The notes under the pieces are model-generated. The model did not search any database. It was not told the origin of the DNA and saw only the letters and a list, made by a program, of their open reading frames with translations. The translations under genes were made by a program, and so were the position numbers. From Candidatus Polarisedimenticolaceae bacterium (GTDB lineage: Bacteria; Acidobacteriota; Polarisedimenticolia; Polarisedimenticolales; DASRJG01), in assembly GCA_036275915.1 (NCBI GenBank), contig DASUCV010000011.1, forward strand, positions 124,001-188,000: a stretch of DNA of 64,000 nucleotides, given 5' to 3'. How positions within the stretch are numbered: the first letter of the stretch is position 1; each line of letters opens with the position of its first letter. This document shows, piece by piece, positions 39,053 to 48,468 of this stretch.

Positions 39053-40486
39053 CTACGCTCCCGGCTTCTTCGGGATCGTGATGTCGAGCTTCGTGACGTT
39101 GCCGAGCGTGTCGAGCGGCTTCGGGAAGTCCGCCGCGCGGCCCACGATCAGGAGCGACAGGTCGTCGACGTGGACGTACGCCTTCGCGACGCGGAGGACG
39201 TCGTCCTTCGATACCTTCTCGATGTTGGAGCGGTACATCTCGAGGTAGTTCGCCGGGAGTCCGTGGTACGCGTAGTTCATCTGCTGCGCGAGGATCCCCG
39301 ACCGCGAGTCGTAGTTGAAGATGAAGGAGTTCAGGATCGCCTCCTTCGCCTGCGTCATCTCGAGATCGGTGGGAGGCGCCACCGTCAAAGCGCGCACCTC
39401 GTCCTTGAGCGCCGCGATCGCGTCGTAGACCGACGCCGACTTGGTCTGCATCCCGAGGCGCATGAGGCCCGGGCGATCGAACGCCGCGCCGAGGCCCCCG
39501 CTCACGCCGTAGGCGAGCCCCTTCTTCGTGCGGATGTTGTTCATGAGGCGGCCCGAGAAGCCGCCGCTCAGGATCTCGTTCATGACCTGCGCGGCGAAGT
39601 AGTCGGGGTTCGTCTGCTCGATCCCGAGGTGCGCCATCGCGATGTTGGCCTGCGTGACGTCCGGCTTCTCGATGAAGTAGACGCCCGGCTTGTTCTTCGC
39701 CTGGTAGGCGATCTTGCCGAGCGCCGGCGACGTGCCCTTCGGCCAGCCGCCGAAGGCCGCCTCGATCGACTTCTTCATCGTCTTCGAATCGAAGTCGCCG
39801 GAGACCCCGATCATGATGTTGTTCGGGACGTAGTACGCCTTGTGCCAGGCGACGAGATCGTCGCGCGTGATCGCGGCGATCGTCCCGTACTCCTCGAGGC
39901 TGACGAGCGGCGAGGCGGCCCCGTAGACGAGCCGCCCGATCTCGCGATTCGTGATGCCGCCGACGTTGTCGTTGCGTCGCGCGATCGCGGAGTTCGCCCC
40001 CACCTTCGCGAGATCGAGCTTGTCCTGCGCGAACGCCGGGTTCCGGAGGACGTCGACGAAGACCTTGAAGACGTCGTCGAAGTCCTGCTTGAGGACGTTC
40101 ATCGTCGCGAACGACTGGTCGCCGCCCGCGCCGGTCTCGACGAACGCGGCGCGCGCCTCGAGATAGTCGTCCATCTGATCGCCGGTCATCGTCTTGGTGC
40201 CGCCGCTTCGCTGCACGACGCCCATCAACCGAGCGAGCCCGACCTTGTTCTGCGGCTCCCAGTACGATCCGGTCCGGATGATCGCCCGCACCGCGACGAT
40301 GGGAAGCTCGTGGTCTTCCATGAGAAAGACGCGCATCCCGTTCTTGAGCGTGTAGGTCTCCGGCTGCGGGACCTTGAACTGGGGGAGGGGCGTGGACTTG
40401 ATCTCGGTGTAGCGCTTCACCTGCGCCGCCGCCGGCAGCGCCGCGAGAAGGCCGGCCAGGAGGCCCGTCGTGATGATCCTCTTCAT
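39053..40486 (-). CDS. M16 peptidase-family protein, non-catalytic partner
   Basis: This 477-residue exported M16 protein (signal peptide MKRIITTGLLAGLLAALPAAA) lacks the zinc motif HxxEH; the aligned region reads VGLARLMGVVQRSGGT. It keeps the substrate-binding Arg/Tyr-type block near RTKKGLAYGVSGGLG. This is typical of the non-catalytic subunit of bacterial M16B heterodimers. It follows the active subunit gene by 14 bp, and its Shine-Dalgarno (AGGGGG) overlaps that gene's stop. The pair probably forms one clam-shell peptidase in the periplasm. Confidence 0.9.
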   Translation of the reverse strand: MKRIITTGLLAGLLAALPAAAQVKRYTEIKSTPLPQFKVPQPETYTLKNGMRVFLMEDHELPIVAVRAIIRTGSYWEPQNKVGLARLMGVVQRSGGTKTMTGDQMDDYLEARAAFVETGAGGDQSFATMNVLKQDFDDVFKVFVDVLRNPAFAQDKLDLAKVGANSAIARRNDNVGGITNREIGRLVYGAASPLVSLEEYGTIAAITRDDLVAWHKAYYVPNNIMIGVSGDFDSKTMKKSIEAAFGGWPKGTSPALGKIAYQAKNKPGVYFIEKPDVTQANIAMAHLGIEQTNPDYFAAQVMNEILSGGFSGRLMNNIRTKKGLAYGVSGGLGAAFDRPGLMRLGMQTKSASVYDAIAALKDEVRALTVAPPTDLEMTQAKEAILNSFIFNYDSRSGILAQQMNYAYHGLPANYLEMYRSNIEKVSKDDVLRVAKAYVHVDDLSLLIVGRAADFPKPLDTLGNVTKLDITIPKKPGA

Positions 40487-40500
40487 GTCTCTCGCCCCCT

Positions 40501-42012
40501 TCACTTCGCGGCCATCGCGGCGTCCGCGCTCTCGATCATCCCGACCGTCCGGTTCGTCGGCACGAAGGTCGCCTTCGCGACCCGCATGACGTCTTCCTTT
40601 GTCACCTTGTCCAGCTTGTCCACGCTCTTGAACATCTCGTGCCAGTCGCCGTAGCGCGCCTGGCAGAAGGCGAGCTGCTGGGCGATGCCCTCGTTGTCGT
40701 CGAGGCTGCGGATCAAGGCGGCGCGCGTGCGAGTCTTGACCGACTTCAGCTCGTCGTCCGAGATCGGCTCGTTCTGGAGGCGCGTGAGCTGCTCGCGGAT
40801 CGCCGCCTGGACCTCTTGGTTCGTGTGGCCGGGCGTCGGCACCGCGCGCATGACGATGAGGGTCGGGTACTTCGTCCCCGGCAGGCCGTTGAACGCGGCC
40901 GCTCCCGCGGCGATCTTCTTGTCGCGCACGAGGCTGCGGTAGAGCCGCGACGTGCGGCCCGACGAGAGCACGCCCGCGATGACGTCGTAGACCGGATCGT
41001 CGGCGTGCGTGTCTTCCGGCCGGTGGTAGGCCTCCATGTAGACCGGCTGCGATGGATCCACGAGCGTGACCGACTTCTCCGCCGTCTGCTTCGGCTCGAC
41101 GGTGCGGAGCGTGTCGGGCTTCGGCCCGGCCGGGATTCGCCCGAAGTACGTGTCGACGAGAGGGATGACCTCCTCCGCTTTCACGTCGCCGACGATCGCG
41201 ATCGTGAGATCGGCCGGGACGTAGTACTTCTTGAAGAAGGCGACGGCGTCCTCGCGCGAGAACGACTGGAGATCGCTCATGTAGCCGACGACCGGCTGCT
41301 TGTAGGGGTGGGCGAGGTACGCGGTCGCGTCGAACTGCTCGATGAGGCGGCCGCCCGGCGTGCTCTCCGTGCGAAGGCGCCGCTCCTCCATGACGACGTC
41401 GCGCTCCTTGTAGAACTCGCGGAACACCGGGTCGTAGAAGCGCGACGACTCGAGGTACGCCCACAGCTCGACCTTGTTCGCCGGAAGCGAGTAGAAGTAG
41501 ACCGTCTGGTCGGAGTTCGTCGACGCGTTCATCCCGACGCCGCCCGCGCGGTCGACGATCGTCGAGAACTCGTTCTTCTCGATGTAGTTGTCCGCCGCGT
41601 CTTGCGCATCCTTGAACGCCTTCTTGAGCGAGTCGAGCTTCGCGGCATCCGGGCTCGCGCTCCGGCGCTCGGCGTCGTACGCGTGATACGCCGCGTCGAC
41701 CTTGTCGAGCGCGACTTTCTCCCCGGCGAAGTCCTTCGTGCCGATCACGCTCGTCCCTTTGAACGCCATGTGCTCGAACATGTGCGCAAGGCCCGTGATC
41801 CCCGGGACCTCCTGCGCCGCGCCGACGTCGGCGAAGGTGAAGAACGAGAAGACCGGCGCGACCGGCCGCCGGTAGATGAGGACCGTCAGGCCGTTCGGCA
41901 GCTTGTGGACGGTGAGGTTCTGCTCGAAGGCCTTCACGTCCTGCGCGCGGATCCCGCGCGCGGCCAGGACGGCCACGGCCGTCATCACGATGAGCGCTCG
42001 CAGTCGATGCAT
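40501..42012 (-). CDS. M16 zinc peptidase, catalytic subunit
   Basis: This 503-residue exported peptidase (signal peptide MHRLRALIVMTAVAVLAA) has the inverted zinc motif HMFEH in LAHMFEHMAFKGT near residue 78, and a downstream Glu ligand candidate in the VMEERRLRTES region. The C-terminal M16 domain follows. The start has GAGGAG upstream. It pairs with the non-catalytic subunit downstream. Probable job: degradation of peptides in the periplasm. Confidence 0.92.
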   Translation of the reverse strand: MHRLRALIVMTAVAVLAARGIRAQDVKAFEQNLTVHKLPNGLTVLIYRRPVAPVFSFFTFADVGAAQEVPGITGLAHMFEHMAFKGTSVIGTKDFAGEKVALDKVDAAYHAYDAERRSASPDAAKLDSLKKAFKDAQDAADNYIEKNEFSTIVDRAGGVGMNASTNSDQTVYFYSLPANKVELWAYLESSRFYDPVFREFYKERDVVMEERRLRTESTPGGRLIEQFDATAYLAHPYKQPVVGYMSDLQSFSREDAVAFFKKYYVPADLTIAIVGDVKAEEVIPLVDTYFGRIPAGPKPDTLRTVEPKQTAEKSVTLVDPSQPVYMEAYHRPEDTHADDPVYDVIAGVLSSGRTSRLYRSLVRDKKIAAGAAAFNGLPGTKYPTLIVMRAVPTPGHTNQEVQAAIREQLTRLQNEPISDDELKSVKTRTRAALIRSLDDNEGIAQQLAFCQARYGDWHEMFKSVDKLDKVTKEDVMRVAKATFVPTNRTVGMIESADAAMAAK

Positions 42013-42102
42013 GCTGTCACTCCTCAAGGAAACGCCTCGGCGTTCGCCGCCTACGTTAACCCAACTGGCGCCCACGGGAGCGAGGTGCCGTACGATCGGT
42101 CC

Positions 42103-42759
42103 ATGCTCCTGCGGCCGCCGCCCCGATTTCCCGGTTTTCCGCGGGACGGATTCGACGTTTTCTCCCTGAGAAATCGAGACGAAAGGCGTCACGCGATCAT
42201 GGAAGCCTTTCACCCGGCCCTGCGCCTCCTCGCCGAGGACGTGCTGCCGCTCGTCGACACCGATCCCGCCGGGAGGTTCCACGCGCACCTGCCGCGCCTC
42301 GACTGGCCGAAGGGCTACGACCCGTTCTGCACGTGGCTCGCCCTCTCGCGCCTGCCGCACGGCTACCAGGCGGGGCCGCAGCTCAACGTCGGGGTCCACG
42401 CCGATTACATCGCCGCGCGTCTCGCGTGGGATACCGGCGCGGACGCCTTCGGCCGCTTCGAGTTCCGTTGCCGGCTCAGCGGCCTGGGGACGCTCCTCGC
42501 CGAGACCGCCGCCGCGTCCCAGCTCACCTTCCGCGTCTACGCCGCCGCACCGTGGCCCGCGGGGTCACACTGCGTCTTCGAGACCGGCACTGACTGGGAT
42601 CAGGCGTTCGTCGAGGTCGCGCGGCGCGGCGTCTGGTGGGAGCTCGGGAGGGTGTGGAAGCTCCCCGAGTCGATCGACGTGGTGACCACTCCGGCGCTCA
42701 GCGGACTGGTCGGAGATGTGTTCGAAGCGCTGGCGCCGGTGTATCGCAAGATCGACTGA
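42103..42759 (+). CDS. DUF1054 (YktB)-like protein
   Basis: This 218-residue cytoplasmic protein resembles YktB of Firmicutes: FPGFPRDGFDVFSLRNRDERR, AIMEAFHPALRLLAEDVL, RFHAHLPRLDWPKGYDPFCTW and LPHGYQAGPQLNVGVHADYI. The function of that family is not established. It sits alone between divergent M16 genes and a convergent ALDH-like gene. The match is by eye, so moderate confidence. A short GTTACTGTCCC motif, shared with the GGGGACA hairpin family, follows the stop. Confidence 0.65.
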   Translation: MLLRPPPRFPGFPRDGFDVFSLRNRDERRHAIMEAFHPALRLLAEDVLPLVDTDPAGRFHAHLPRLDWPKGYDPFCTWLALSRLPHGYQAGPQLNVGVHADYIAARLAWDTGADAFGRFEFRCRLSGLGTLLAETAAASQLTFRVYAAAPWPAGSHCVFETGTDWDQAFVEVARRGVWWELGRVWKLPESIDVVTTPALSGLVGDVFEALAPVYRKID

Positions 42760-42787: not shown

Positions 42788-44479
42788 CTATCCCACGCGC
42801 TTGCGGGCGAAGAGGAACGAGCCCCACGGAACACGCGCGCGGAATCGTTTGCGGCGCATCAGCTTGCCGAGCGCGTAGGTGCGCGAGAACCAGCCGGGGC
42901 CGTGGAGCGCCTTCAGCGTCGACTCGGCGATGGCGTTGGCCTCGTCGCCGTAGGGGAACGCGAACGCGGACGCCTCGAGCGACGTGCCGTCGAACGAGAC
43001 GAAGCGGCGGCGGCTCATCTCCTTGAGGCTCGCGAGTCCATGGCTGGCGCCGAGGCCGCTCTGCTTGAAGCCGGACCAGGTCGCCGCCGGCTCGCCGTAA
43101 GCGTAGAGGACGTCGTTGATCGTGACGACGCCCGCCTGGAGCCCGATCATGAGGCGCTCTCCGGTCTCGTCGGAAACGGTCCATCCCGAGGCGGTCAGCG
43201 CGAACGGGCTGTCGTTCGCCTTCTCGATCGCGCGCTCCACGTTCTCGACGGTCATGATCGGGATGACGGGACCGAGCGTCTCTTCCTGGAGCAGGCGGCA
43301 TCCTTCGGGCGGATCGAGGAGGACGGTGGGCGGGTAGAAGTAGCCCGGTCCGTCGGGCAGGGTGCCGCCGCGGAGCAAGCGCGCGCCGAAGAGCACCGCC
43401 TCGGACACCTGCTCGTGGACCGTCTGGCGCCGCTCCTCCGAGATGAGAGGCCCGACGTCGACTCCGGCCTCGAGCGGATCGCCGACGCGCAGCTTGTCGA
43501 CCTCGGCGAGGAGCGCCTCGACGAATCGTGCGGCGACGCGCTCTTCGACGTAGACGCGCTCGATGGCGCCAAAGTTCTGTCCTGCGTTCGCGCAGGCGCC
43601 CCAGACGATGCCCTTCGCGGCTCGCGCGACGTCCGCGTCGGCGGCGACGATCGATGGGTGCTTGCCGCCGAGGCTCAGGACGACGGGACGCGGCGCCGCC
43701 GCGGCAATCGCCATCATCGCTTGGCCGGCCTGCACGGTTCCGGTGACGAACACCTTGTCGATCTTGTCGTGGCTGACCAAGCGCAGCGTCTCGTCCGGGG
43801 GCGCGGGAACGACGTTGACGAGCCCCGCCGGGAAGCCGGCCTGCACGCACAGCTCGCCGACGCGGAGCGCGGTGAGCGGCGTGCGCGAAGACGGCTTCAG
43901 GATCACCGCGTTCCCCATCGCCAGGGCCGACGCCGTCTGGATGAGCGGTTGCGCGAACGGTAGCGACGACGACGTCACGAGGAGCACGACGCCCATCGGG
44001 TCGTAGAGGTAGAGCGCCCGCTTGTGCGCCCAGAGGGGGTGCCGCGGCTCGATCGCCTCGCCCTGCGTCAGCTCGCGCGCGTGACGCGAGAGGAACCGCA
44101 GGTGGTCGAGCGCGGGCAGAATCTCGAGCGCCAGCGCCTCGGCGTACGGCTTCCCCTGCTCGAGCGCGATGAGGCCGGCGATCGACTCGGCCTCCTCACG
44201 CAGGCGTTCGGCGAGACGGGTCAGCCGCCGCGCGCGCTCGTCGAACGGCGCACCGCGCCAGAGCTTCGCGGCGAACGTCGCGGCGTCGACCGCTTGCTCG
44301 ACCTCCGCCGGGTCGGCACACGCCACCCTTGCGAACGGCTCCCCGGTCGAGGGATTGACGTCCGCAATCAGGGGACCCGCACCGGTCCCCGGCTCCCCGT
44401 TGATCAGGGGAAGCAGGGGAAGCGGGCCCCCACCGGCTCCCGCTCTCTCTGAAGACTCCACGCTCACGAATATAGGCAC
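42788..44479 (-). CDS. Aldehyde dehydrogenase-fold pseudoenzyme
   Basis: This 563-residue ALDH-superfamily protein keeps the fold blocks (GNAVILKPSSRTPL, VFVTGTVQAGQAM, ETLGPVIPIMTVENVE, WSGFKQSGLGASHGL) but lacks the catalytic residues. The nucleophile Cys is Phe (NAGQNFGAIERVYV instead of GQxC). The general-base Glu is Ser (LSLGGKHPSIV instead of ELGGK). The oxyanion Asn of the PWNYP motif is missing (TSSSLPFAQPL). A 60-residue basic C-terminal tail follows the ALDH domain. No frameshift or stop interrupts the gene, so selection on a non-enzymatic role is likely. Any call as succinate-semialdehyde dehydrogenase would be wrong. Confidence 0.85.
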   Translation of the reverse strand: MPIFVSVESSERAGAGGGPLPLLPLINGEPGTGAGPLIADVNPSTGEPFARVACADPAEVEQAVDAATFAAKLWRGAPFDERARRLTRLAERLREEAESIAGLIALEQGKPYAEALALEILPALDHLRFLSRHARELTQGEAIEPRHPLWAHKRALYLYDPMGVVLLVTSSSLPFAQPLIQTASALAMGNAVILKPSSRTPLTALRVGELCVQAGFPAGLVNVVPAPPDETLRLVSHDKIDKVFVTGTVQAGQAMMAIAAAAPRPVVLSLGGKHPSIVAADADVARAAKGIVWGACANAGQNFGAIERVYVEERVAARFVEALLAEVDKLRVGDPLEAGVDVGPLISEERRQTVHEQVSEAVLFGARLLRGGTLPDGPGYFYPPTVLLDPPEGCRLLQEETLGPVIPIMTVENVERAIEKANDSPFALTASGWTVSDETGERLMIGLQAGVVTINDVLYAYGEPAATWSGFKQSGLGASHGLASLKEMSRRRFVSFDGTSLEASAFAFPYGDEANAIAESTLKALHGPGWFSRTYALGKLMRRKRFRARVPWGSFLFARKRVG

Positions 44480-45282: not shown

Positions 45283-45858
45283 TCAGTGGTGCGCCACTCC
45301 CTGCACATCCACCTCCGGATCGAACACGAAGCTGCCTCCGATCACCTTGAACGACGTGTCGCAGCGGAGCTGGAGCGTGATCTCGGTGACCTGGCCGGCG
45401 ACGACGCTGAAGTCGACGGGGATCCGCACGACCCAGCCGCCCGACGGCGGTGTGATCGATACCTGCGTCCCGTCGGTCAGCGTGAGATCGGCCTTCGTGA
45501 TCGTGACCTGCAGACCGTCGTATGCGCCCTCGGGGATCGCGTCGGCCGGCAGCGAGATCGGATTGCCGCCGTTCAGGATCGCCAGCAGATCGACGGTCGC
45601 CGGAAGCCCGGCATCGACGACCACCCAGGTCCCGCTCGTCTGGTGCGCCTCGACCGCCGAGACGGTGATCATCGCCGCTTGGAGCTGCGAGATCGGGTCG
45701 GCGGCGGAGACGGTCCGGGAAGCTGCGGCGGTGCCGAGCGACGCTCCCATCGCCACGCTGAGCGAGCCGTGGGATTCGTTGTTCCCGGATGAACAACCTG
45801 CGACGACGGTCAGAAGCATCGCGGTCAAACCGGCGAGCGCCGGGGTGGATCGCCTCAT
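45283..45858 (-). CDS. DUF4382-like lipoprotein
   Basis: This 191-residue lipoprotein starts at ATG 45858 behind AAGGAGG. The signal peptide ends in VVAGC (lipobox). The mature domain shows the DUF4382 pattern: QLQAAMITVSAVEAHQT, GTWVVVDAGLPATVDLLAIL, IPEGAYDGLQVTITKADLTL, and late strands ending VFDPEVDVQGVAHH. Such proteins are envelope-located with unknown role. The stop codon touches the heptamer array. Confidence 0.78.
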   Translation of the reverse strand: MRRSTPALAGLTAMLLTVVAGCSSGNNESHGSLSVAMGASLGTAAASRTVSAADPISQLQAAMITVSAVEAHQTSGTWVVVDAGLPATVDLLAILNGGNPISLPADAIPEGAYDGLQVTITKADLTLTDGTQVSITPPSGGWVVRIPVDFSVVAGQVTEITLQLRCDTSFKVIGGSFVFDPEVDVQGVAHH

Positions 45859-46014
45859 GACGTCCTCCTTCCTGACTGACTTACTGACCGGATATCCCCA
45901 GCAAGCGGCGTGCCCCGGTTTCCGATGCACGTTCCGGATTGTCCGCCCGCGCCGGAGTGGCCGCAAACGGCGCCGGAACCCATATTCGCCGCCGTTCCGA
46001 CCATGGGGGTGGTC

Positions 46015-46419
46015 ATGACCGAGTCGAGGGCTGCGGCGCCGTATCGGAATCGGCGCCTTCAAAGGCGTTACAACCTGGCGCCCGATGCGGGCGCGACGCT
46101 CCGATTTCGTTATCCGGCGCCCGCGGGGGTGCCGTACGACCTCCCGCTCCGCGACATCAGCCTTTCCGGCCTTTCGCTGGTTCTTCCCAACGATTTCCCC
46201 GAGCTTCAGGCCGGGGACATGATCAAGGGGATCGAGGTTCGCGTCTCGCGCAAGGTCTTCCACGGCGACCTGCTCGTCATGCACGTGACCCCACTCCACC
46301 AAGTCGGCGGGGTTTGCGGCGGCCTCTTCTATCCCGAGGGCGACGAGGACCTCATCACAGTCCGCCTCGTCATCAAGGCGCTCGACGCCGCCAACCCCGG
46401 CGAAGGGGGGACGCGATAG
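46015..46419 (+). CDS. PilZ-domain protein
   Basis: This 134-residue protein is a single PilZ domain: the RxxxR motif in NRRLQRRYNLAP and the DxSxxG motif in LRDISLSGLSLVL. These are the residues that bind cyclic di-GMP. ATG 46015 is used; ATG 46003 is in frame. It likely senses c-di-GMP and signals to an unknown partner. Its TAG stop lies in the left arm of a hairpin of the GGGGACA family. Confidence 0.85.
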   Translation: MTESRAAAPYRNRRLQRRYNLAPDAGATLRFRYPAPAGVPYDLPLRDISLSGLSLVLPNDFPELQAGDMIKGIEVRVSRKVFHGDLLVMHVTPLHQVGGVCGGLFYPEGDEDLITVRLVIKALDAANPGEGGTR

Positions 46420-46445
46420 AAGGGACTGATTACTGTCCCCTTCTA
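46417..46445. repeat. REP-like inverted repeat overlapping the PilZ stop
   Basis: Arms TAGAAGGGAC and GTCCCCTTCTA are complementary apart from one extra C, separated by 8 nt. The left arm includes the PilZ stop codon. A related half (GGTGCCTGTCCCC) follows at about 46453. Part of a dispersed family with core GGGGACA. Confidence 0.6.
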
Positions 46446-46551
46446 TTAAATCGGTGCCTGTCCCCTCATTCCTGAAACCGCGGCCCCACCGCAACCGTTC
46501 TCTTGGGCGCCGCCGGGGGAGGTTCCCCGGCGTTCCGATCCGGAGGACCTC

Positions 46552-47526
46552 ATGAACCGCTCCTTCCCTCGCCTCGCGATGGCGGCCGCCGTGGTCGCCG
46601 TGCTGGCCTCCGTTCCCGCGCTGGCCGACACCCGCATCGAGAAGAACCTGAAGCTGGATTCCGGCGGCAAGCTGACGATCGTCGCCGACGCGGGAAGCGT
46701 CCAGGTGACCGGCGGCAATGCGTCCGGCGCGCACATCCTTCTGACGTCGTCCCGGGACGACCTCGAGCAGCGCTTCGATCTCAAGTTCGAGGAGCTGCCG
46801 GGCGAGGTCAAGATCACCATGAAGAAGAAGGAGTCGCTCAACTTCTGGTCGAACTGGTTCAACAACTCGAAGATCTCCTTCGAGATCCAGGTGCCGACCA
46901 AGACGCGGACCGACCTCACGACCGGCGGCGGTTACCTCTCGATCGCGTCGCTCACGGGTGACAGCAAGCTCGAGACGTCGGGCGGCCACATCGAGGTCGA
47001 GAACCTCACCGGCAACCTCAACGGCGAGACCTCCGGCGGCCACATCGCGCTCCACTCGATCTCCGGCGATGCCAAGATCGAGACCTCCGGCGGCCACATC
47101 GAGGTCGACGGGGTGACGGGAATGCTTCACGGCGAGACCTCGGGCGGCCACATCGAGGTTGCGAACGTCGGGAAGGACATCCACGTCGAGACCTCCGGTG
47201 GGCGCATCGAGATCAAGGGTGCGCACGGGCGCGTCGAGGCCGATACGTCGGGCGGCGGCGTCGAGGTGAGCTTCGCGAAGGGCAACTCGGCCGGCGGCAA
47301 GATCGAGAGCTCGGGCGGCGGGATCCGCGTCAGCCTCGACCCGAACGCGAACCTCAACATCGACGCTTCGACCTCCGGCGGCTCGGTGCGCAGCGACGTC
47401 CCGGTGAAGGTCGTCGGCAAGATCTCGGGATCGAGCATCAAGGGGTCGCTCGGGAGCGGCGGCGAGCTGCTCTACGTCCACACGTCCGGCGGCTCGGTGA
47501 CGATCTCGGCGGGCGGAGAGATCTGA
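46552..47526 (+). CDS. DUF4097-family secreted beta-helix-like protein
   Basis: This 324-residue protein starts at ATG 46552 behind GGAGGACC, with a signal peptide (MAAAVVAVLASVPALADT). The body is a series of about 18-residue repeats with a TSGGHIEV core (at least five close copies at about 140-230), building a right-handed beta-solenoid as in DUF4097 adhesin-like proteins. The repeats are also visible at DNA level, about 54 bp apart (46970-47200). Probably surface or periplasmic; function unknown. Confidence 0.85.
   Translation: MNRSFPRLAMAAAVVAVLASVPALADTRIEKNLKLDSGGKLTIVADAGSVQVTGGNASGAHILLTSSRDDLEQRFDLKFEELPGEVKITMKKKESLNFWSNWFNNSKISFEIQVPTKTRTDLTTGGGYLSIASLTGDSKLETSGGHIEVENLTGNLNGETSGGHIALHSISGDAKIETSGGHIEVDGVTGMLHGETSGGHIEVANVGKDIHVETSGGRIEIKGAHGRVEADTSGGGVEVSFAKGNSAGGKIESSGGGIRVSLDPNANLNIDASTSGGSVRSDVPVKVVGKISGSSIKGSLGSGGELLYVHTSGGSVTISAGGEI

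Positions 47527-48468
<942 letters not shown>

Follow-up and report, generated by a model that had tools for sequence, protein, structure and literature searches.

An aldehyde dehydrogenase-fold protein lacking all three catalytic residues: a probable bacterial pseudoenzyme among Cys-retaining orthologues

We found that the window (the whole stretch of 64,000 nucleotides analysed here) encodes a protein of the aldehyde dehydrogenase (ALDH) superfamily which has none of the three residues needed for catalysis. The explanation that we favour, with a probability of about 0.6, is that it is a maintained pseudoenzyme with the ALDH fold, formerly active and now probably working by the binding of a ligand or a partner. 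The earlier note on this DNA had proposed that the protein is probably not an aldehyde dehydrogenase and may have a binding or structural role, and on comparison with its relatives this is the best-supported reading. Its two parts differ in strength: the sequence argues strongly that the protein has no ALDH activity, and more weakly that it may bind a dinucleotide or a partner.

The gene occupies positions 42788..44479 of the window (minus strand, as are all features of the protein given below). Its reading frame of 563 codons starts with GTG and has no internal stop, which bears out the intact frame described in the earlier note, and its GC3 is 0.90. Membership of the ALDH superfamily is evident from both sequence and predicted fold (PF00171; VIA). 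The Pfam profile Aldedh (PF00171) matches the 563-aa product with an E-value of 1.6e-123 (413 bits, the cut-off being 23), and the alignment with solved ALDHs spans the whole domain except the tail. An AlphaFold2 model, built from an alignment of the window protein with the collected loci, has a pLDDT of 91.1 and a pTM of 0.89, and both Foldseek and VIA match it to many solved ALDHs (the best VIA match has Z 54 and covers 482 residues at 1.9 A). By this prediction, the fold has survived the loss of the catalytic residues. None of the 25 best NCBIfam ALDH equivalog models shown passed its curated cut-off with the window protein (the best reached 324 where 521 was required), and NCBIfam gave no specific family for the clade formed by the protein and its orthologues in the order, or for their triad-bearing relatives.

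Reference positions are numbered here as in human ALDH2. Of the three catalytic residues of an active ALDH (EC 1.2.1), namely Cys302, Glu268 and Asn169, none is present. Alignment with about 150 ALDHs places Ser172 at the position of the oxyanion Asn169, Ser269 at that of the general base Glu268 and Phe303 at that of the nucleophile Cys302, in agreement with the earlier claim that Cys had become Phe, Glu had become Ser and the Asn motif was gone. The oxyanion motif (residues 170-172; 43964..43972) reads SSS in place of the PWN of the subfamily. The position of the general base (43673..43675) is occupied by Ser, Ala or Arg in the order clade and by Glu in the 24 rows of the tailed outgroup. Phe303 (43571..43573; codon TTT) stands where seven of seven orthologues and all the other aligned proteins carry Cys. 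This loss does not reflect degradation throughout the genome, since six other ALDH-like proteins encoded there all retain Asn, Glu and Cys.

The cofactor pocket has also been altered. In ALDH2 numbering, nicotinamide is contacted by Gln349, Glu399 and Phe401, and the adenine ribose by Lys192 and Glu195, the general base being Glu268 (PMC8160307). In the window protein, Gln349 is replaced by Arg350 (43430..43432), a contact lost in 7/8 members of the clade, and Phe401 by Leu402 (43274..43276), where all eight members have Leu or Cys and the outgroup Phe. Of the residues that bind NAD(P), Lys192 and Glu399 are kept as Lys195 (43895..43897) and Glu400 (43280..43282), and both positions are retained in 8/8 clade members, Glu399 being invariant in the outgroup as well. 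Glu195 is Glu in 7/8 members and Ser in the window protein (E198S), in a column that also varies in the outgroup.

These changes belong to a wider remodelling. We considered columns in which at least 95% of the 24 rows of the tailed outgroup share one residue, and counted a change as clade-wide when it occurred in at least six of the eight clade members. By this measure 15 of 95 subfamily-conserved columns have changed, among them Trp168, Asn169, Phe243, Glu268, Gln349 and Phe401; Asn169 and Glu268, present in the 24 outgroup rows used, are lost in all eight members. Catalytic and nicotinamide contacts (Glu268, Cys302, Gln349, Glu399 and Phe401, a set that follows PMC8160307) are enriched among the changed columns (Fisher p 0.027). 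A wider set gave p 0.0004, which is optimistic, as four positions were added from general knowledge after the list had been seen. This pattern suggests that the nicotinamide and catalytic half of the site has been dismantled and part of the adenosine half kept.

The gene is present in 8/10 genomes of the order (the window and seven others), without frame breaks. The seven orthologues are 52-65% identical to the window protein, carry the tail and contain no stops; in the eight proteins together the Asn column holds Ser, Pro or Ala and the Glu column Ser, Ala or Arg. The earlier note had asked whether homologues share the Phe and Ser substitutions, and had taken a return of Cys and Glu in them as a sign of sequence errors. 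The losses of Glu and Asn are common to all seven orthologues and Glu is restored in none, but Cys is present in all seven and its replacement by Phe is private to the window. The two remaining genomes (G002 and G005) have no copy at E 1e-90 and encode only other ALDHs with 25-34% identity, so that the gene has either been lost there or was never gained.

With further relatives from the class, from the phylum and from named genomes, the alignment grew to 159 rows, of which one duplicates the window protein and one could not be usably aligned. Departures from Asn, Glu and Cys occur in it only in the order clade and in L098 (G042:C40:19310-20788) and L163 (G070:C113:419-1939). These two are related tailed ALDHs of one family, which have Thr or Ala at Glu268 and keep Asn and Cys, and in them the general base may have been lost independently, which recalls CoA-acylating ALDHs. 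Within the same phylum, triad-bearing ALDHs with the tail (L102, L103 and L095 among them) reach 46-47% identity to the window protein in the closest cases. They share its C-terminal tail and, by the tree, its subfamily, but they retain Asn, Glu, Cys, Trp168, Gln349 and Phe401. In the contigs of the named genomes the window protein found only ALDHs of about 30-36% identity, and the clade alignment matched nothing in the viral contigs that were scanned. In three other tailed ALDHs (L119, L142 and L148, from G282, G063 and G382), the search match is interrupted by one or two in-frame stops.

The basic C-terminal tail of the window protein (residues 498-563; 42791..42988) comprises about 65 amino acids after about residue 498, and AlphaFold2 predicts it to be helical (helices 512-526 and 530-541). 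The earlier note was right in describing a basic tail, but not in calling it extra, as it is common to the whole subfamily. Measured past a reference point, tails reach about 72-76 residues in the closest subfamily members, 43-62 in other tailed relatives and 6-22 in ordinary ALDHs. The tail is ancestral to the subfamily, predating the catalytic loss, and not linked to it. It is of a WWYPY type, in which respect only the protein may resemble the ALDH22/MSC7-type or the diapolycopene-dialdehyde dehydrogenase-type tailed subfamily.

In the tree, the window protein and its seven orthologues form a single clade (support 100/100) nested in the C-terminally tailed subfamily, whose other sampled members have the full triad, except for two that lack Glu only. 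The order clade has a long stem, with 0.79 changes per column, and the loss of Asn and Glu coincides with this burst of change. The triad was lost in two steps, from intact, through Cys only in the whole order, to none in the window. The tip of the window protein measures 0.31 and that of its sister L088 0.39, which indicates no acceleration after the loss of Cys. At ten sites the window protein departs from a residue on which all the other clade members agree; each of these members has 8-29 such departures of its own. Between the window gene and that of its nearest relative (G001), whose products are 65% identical, dS is close to saturation, and selection on the window branch was therefore judged from tip length and the intact frame only. 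The close pair G006/G008 (dN 0.046, dS 0.505) shows purifying selection.

The surroundings of the gene are not conserved. No gene accompanies the orthologues across the order, either as part of an operon or as a likely binding partner, and gene context therefore gives no function. The neighbours in the window are a DUF1054 gene, two M16 peptidase genes and, on the opposite strand, a histidine phosphatase gene; only the window and G001 have the M16 neighbours in common. The peptidase genes stand in tandem (39053-42399, minus strand), and G001 has ORFs of the same family downstream of its orthologue. A 935-aa ORF (45283-48090, minus strand) matches DUF4382 at its C-terminal end only and is crossed in the middle by a DUF4097 ORF (46552-47526, plus strand); most of it is probably non-coding. 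The window genome showed no tailed paralogue with the triad, and the gene thus seems to be a direct descendant of the active ancestor, with no surviving active duplicate.

The following course of events would account for these data. An active ALDH of the C-terminally tailed bacterial subfamily would have lost Glu, Asn and several contacts of the nicotinamide pocket before the radiation of the order, with rapid change on the stem of the clade. The former enzyme would then have been retained under constraint, as the sole gene of the subfamily in the genome, and the window lineage would later have lost the catalytic Cys too. As the nucleophile and the base are gone and the nicotinamide pocket is remodelled, the ALDH reaction should be impossible for the window protein. 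Lys192 and Glu399, which it retains, might instead let it bind a dinucleotide-like ligand, although E198S removes an adenine-ribose contact present in its relatives, or the fold and the helical tail might serve to bind partner subunits or proteins. The features typical of ALDH pseudoenzymes in general, i.e. the (predicted) ALDH fold, the loss of catalytic residues and a conserved gene, all seem to be present.

The retention of Cys in 7/8 clade members speaks against a pseudoenzyme, as it fits a surviving Cys-dependent chemistry, but the argument is weak because 162/552 columns are invariant among the seven orthologues anyway. One alternative is that the clade consists of still-catalytic, Cys-only enzymes. 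As these lack the Glu needed for hydrolysis, a different nucleophile, or a reaction running reductively, would form or resolve the acyl-enzyme, and the window copy would be an inactivated derivative. Apart from Cys302 in 7/7 orthologues, this possibility is favoured by human ALDH18A1, which has Cys alone, and by ALDH6A1, in which Glu is replaced and a CoA ester is formed (PMC10650815). ALDH6, however, keeps the Asn that the clade has lost, and the replacement of Gln349, Phe401, Trp168 and mostly Phe243 argues against normal nicotinamide chemistry. As the clade is, moreover, nested in an ordinary triad-bearing subfamily and no pathway genes travel with the gene, we regard this alternative as rather unlikely, though deserving attention. 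Decay of a functionless gene on its way to loss might be suspected from the disappearance of all catalytic residues and the absence of the gene from 2/10 genomes of the order. It is hard to reconcile with the intact 563-codon frame, the GC3 of 0.90, the confidently predicted fold, the lack of acceleration at the tip and the purifying selection in G006/G008, and we consider it improbable.

Two further alternatives concern Phe303 itself. The segment WGACANAGQNF of the window protein and WGAFANAGQNC of the nearest relative (G001) differ by an exact reciprocal exchange of Phe and Cys, as if Cys had moved from 303 to 296 and Phe in the reverse direction, Cys296 (43592..43594; seven residues before Phe303) now being the nucleophile. 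Various hydrophobic residues occupy column 296 in the clade, however (C/F/L/I/M), which makes a change there unremarkable, and Glu and Asn are missing as well; a relocated nucleophile is therefore highly improbable. We give the same very low credence to the combined proposal that the order clade converted an ALDH to a different, Cys-only chemistry and that the window lineage then relocated its nucleophile by this exchange. The remaining alternative is that Phe303 arose by an error in sequencing or assembly and that the true residue is Cys, as in the relatives. Phe303 is private to one assembly, and its codon is the sole TTT among the 22 Phe codons of the gene, one wrong base from a TGT ancestor. 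G001 and G009 have TGC at this codon, however, which is two changes away, and the difference from G001 at position 296, together with the private C261A and E198S, shows that the pocket has truly diverged. An error is thus unlikely, and we allow it only a very slight chance. Cys261 is invariant in the seven orthologues (L088-L094) and was lost in the window along with Cys303. A disulphide or metal pair of Cys261 and Cys303 in the clade was considered and set aside, as a single co-loss proves little.

The pseudoenzyme that we propose has several partial parallels. In mammals, ALDH16A1 also combines the ALDH fold with the absence of the triad, and the name pseudoenzyme has been applied to it (PMC10650815, PMC8160307). 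Descriptions of ALDH16 include a further, large C-terminal domain for cofactor binding that is non-functional, whereas the window protein is bacterial, of separate origin, with a single ALDH domain and a short basic tail, and reached this state by two steps of loss. We rejected its membership of ALDH16, since it contains one Aldedh stretch only and a tail of about 65 residues; it is comparable to ALDH16A1 by its active site, but is not a member of that family. Bacterial ALDH homologues with the catalytic Cys replaced by Ser or Pro are encoded as second AldDHs in GRM1 microcompartment loci, where they are proposed to be scaffolds or regulators (PMC4207490). Those loci contain another AldDH, whereas the window gene has none beside it and its product has also lost Asn and Glu. 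ALDH18A1 (gamma-glutamyl phosphate reductase) resembles the seven orthologues in keeping Cys without Glu and Asn (PMC10650815). It is, however, the most distant human member of the superfamily, while the order clade arises inside ordinary ALDHs and includes, in the window, a protein without Cys at that position.

To conclude, dead ALDHs are already known, but as scattered cases. Here the successive stages are found around one bacterial order, with the full triad outside it, Cys only in the seven orthologues and none of the three residues in the window protein. Annotation pipelines probably label the whole clade as aldehyde dehydrogenases. As triad-bearing members of the subfamily persist in related genomes, a test of what outlasts catalysis in these proteins becomes practical.
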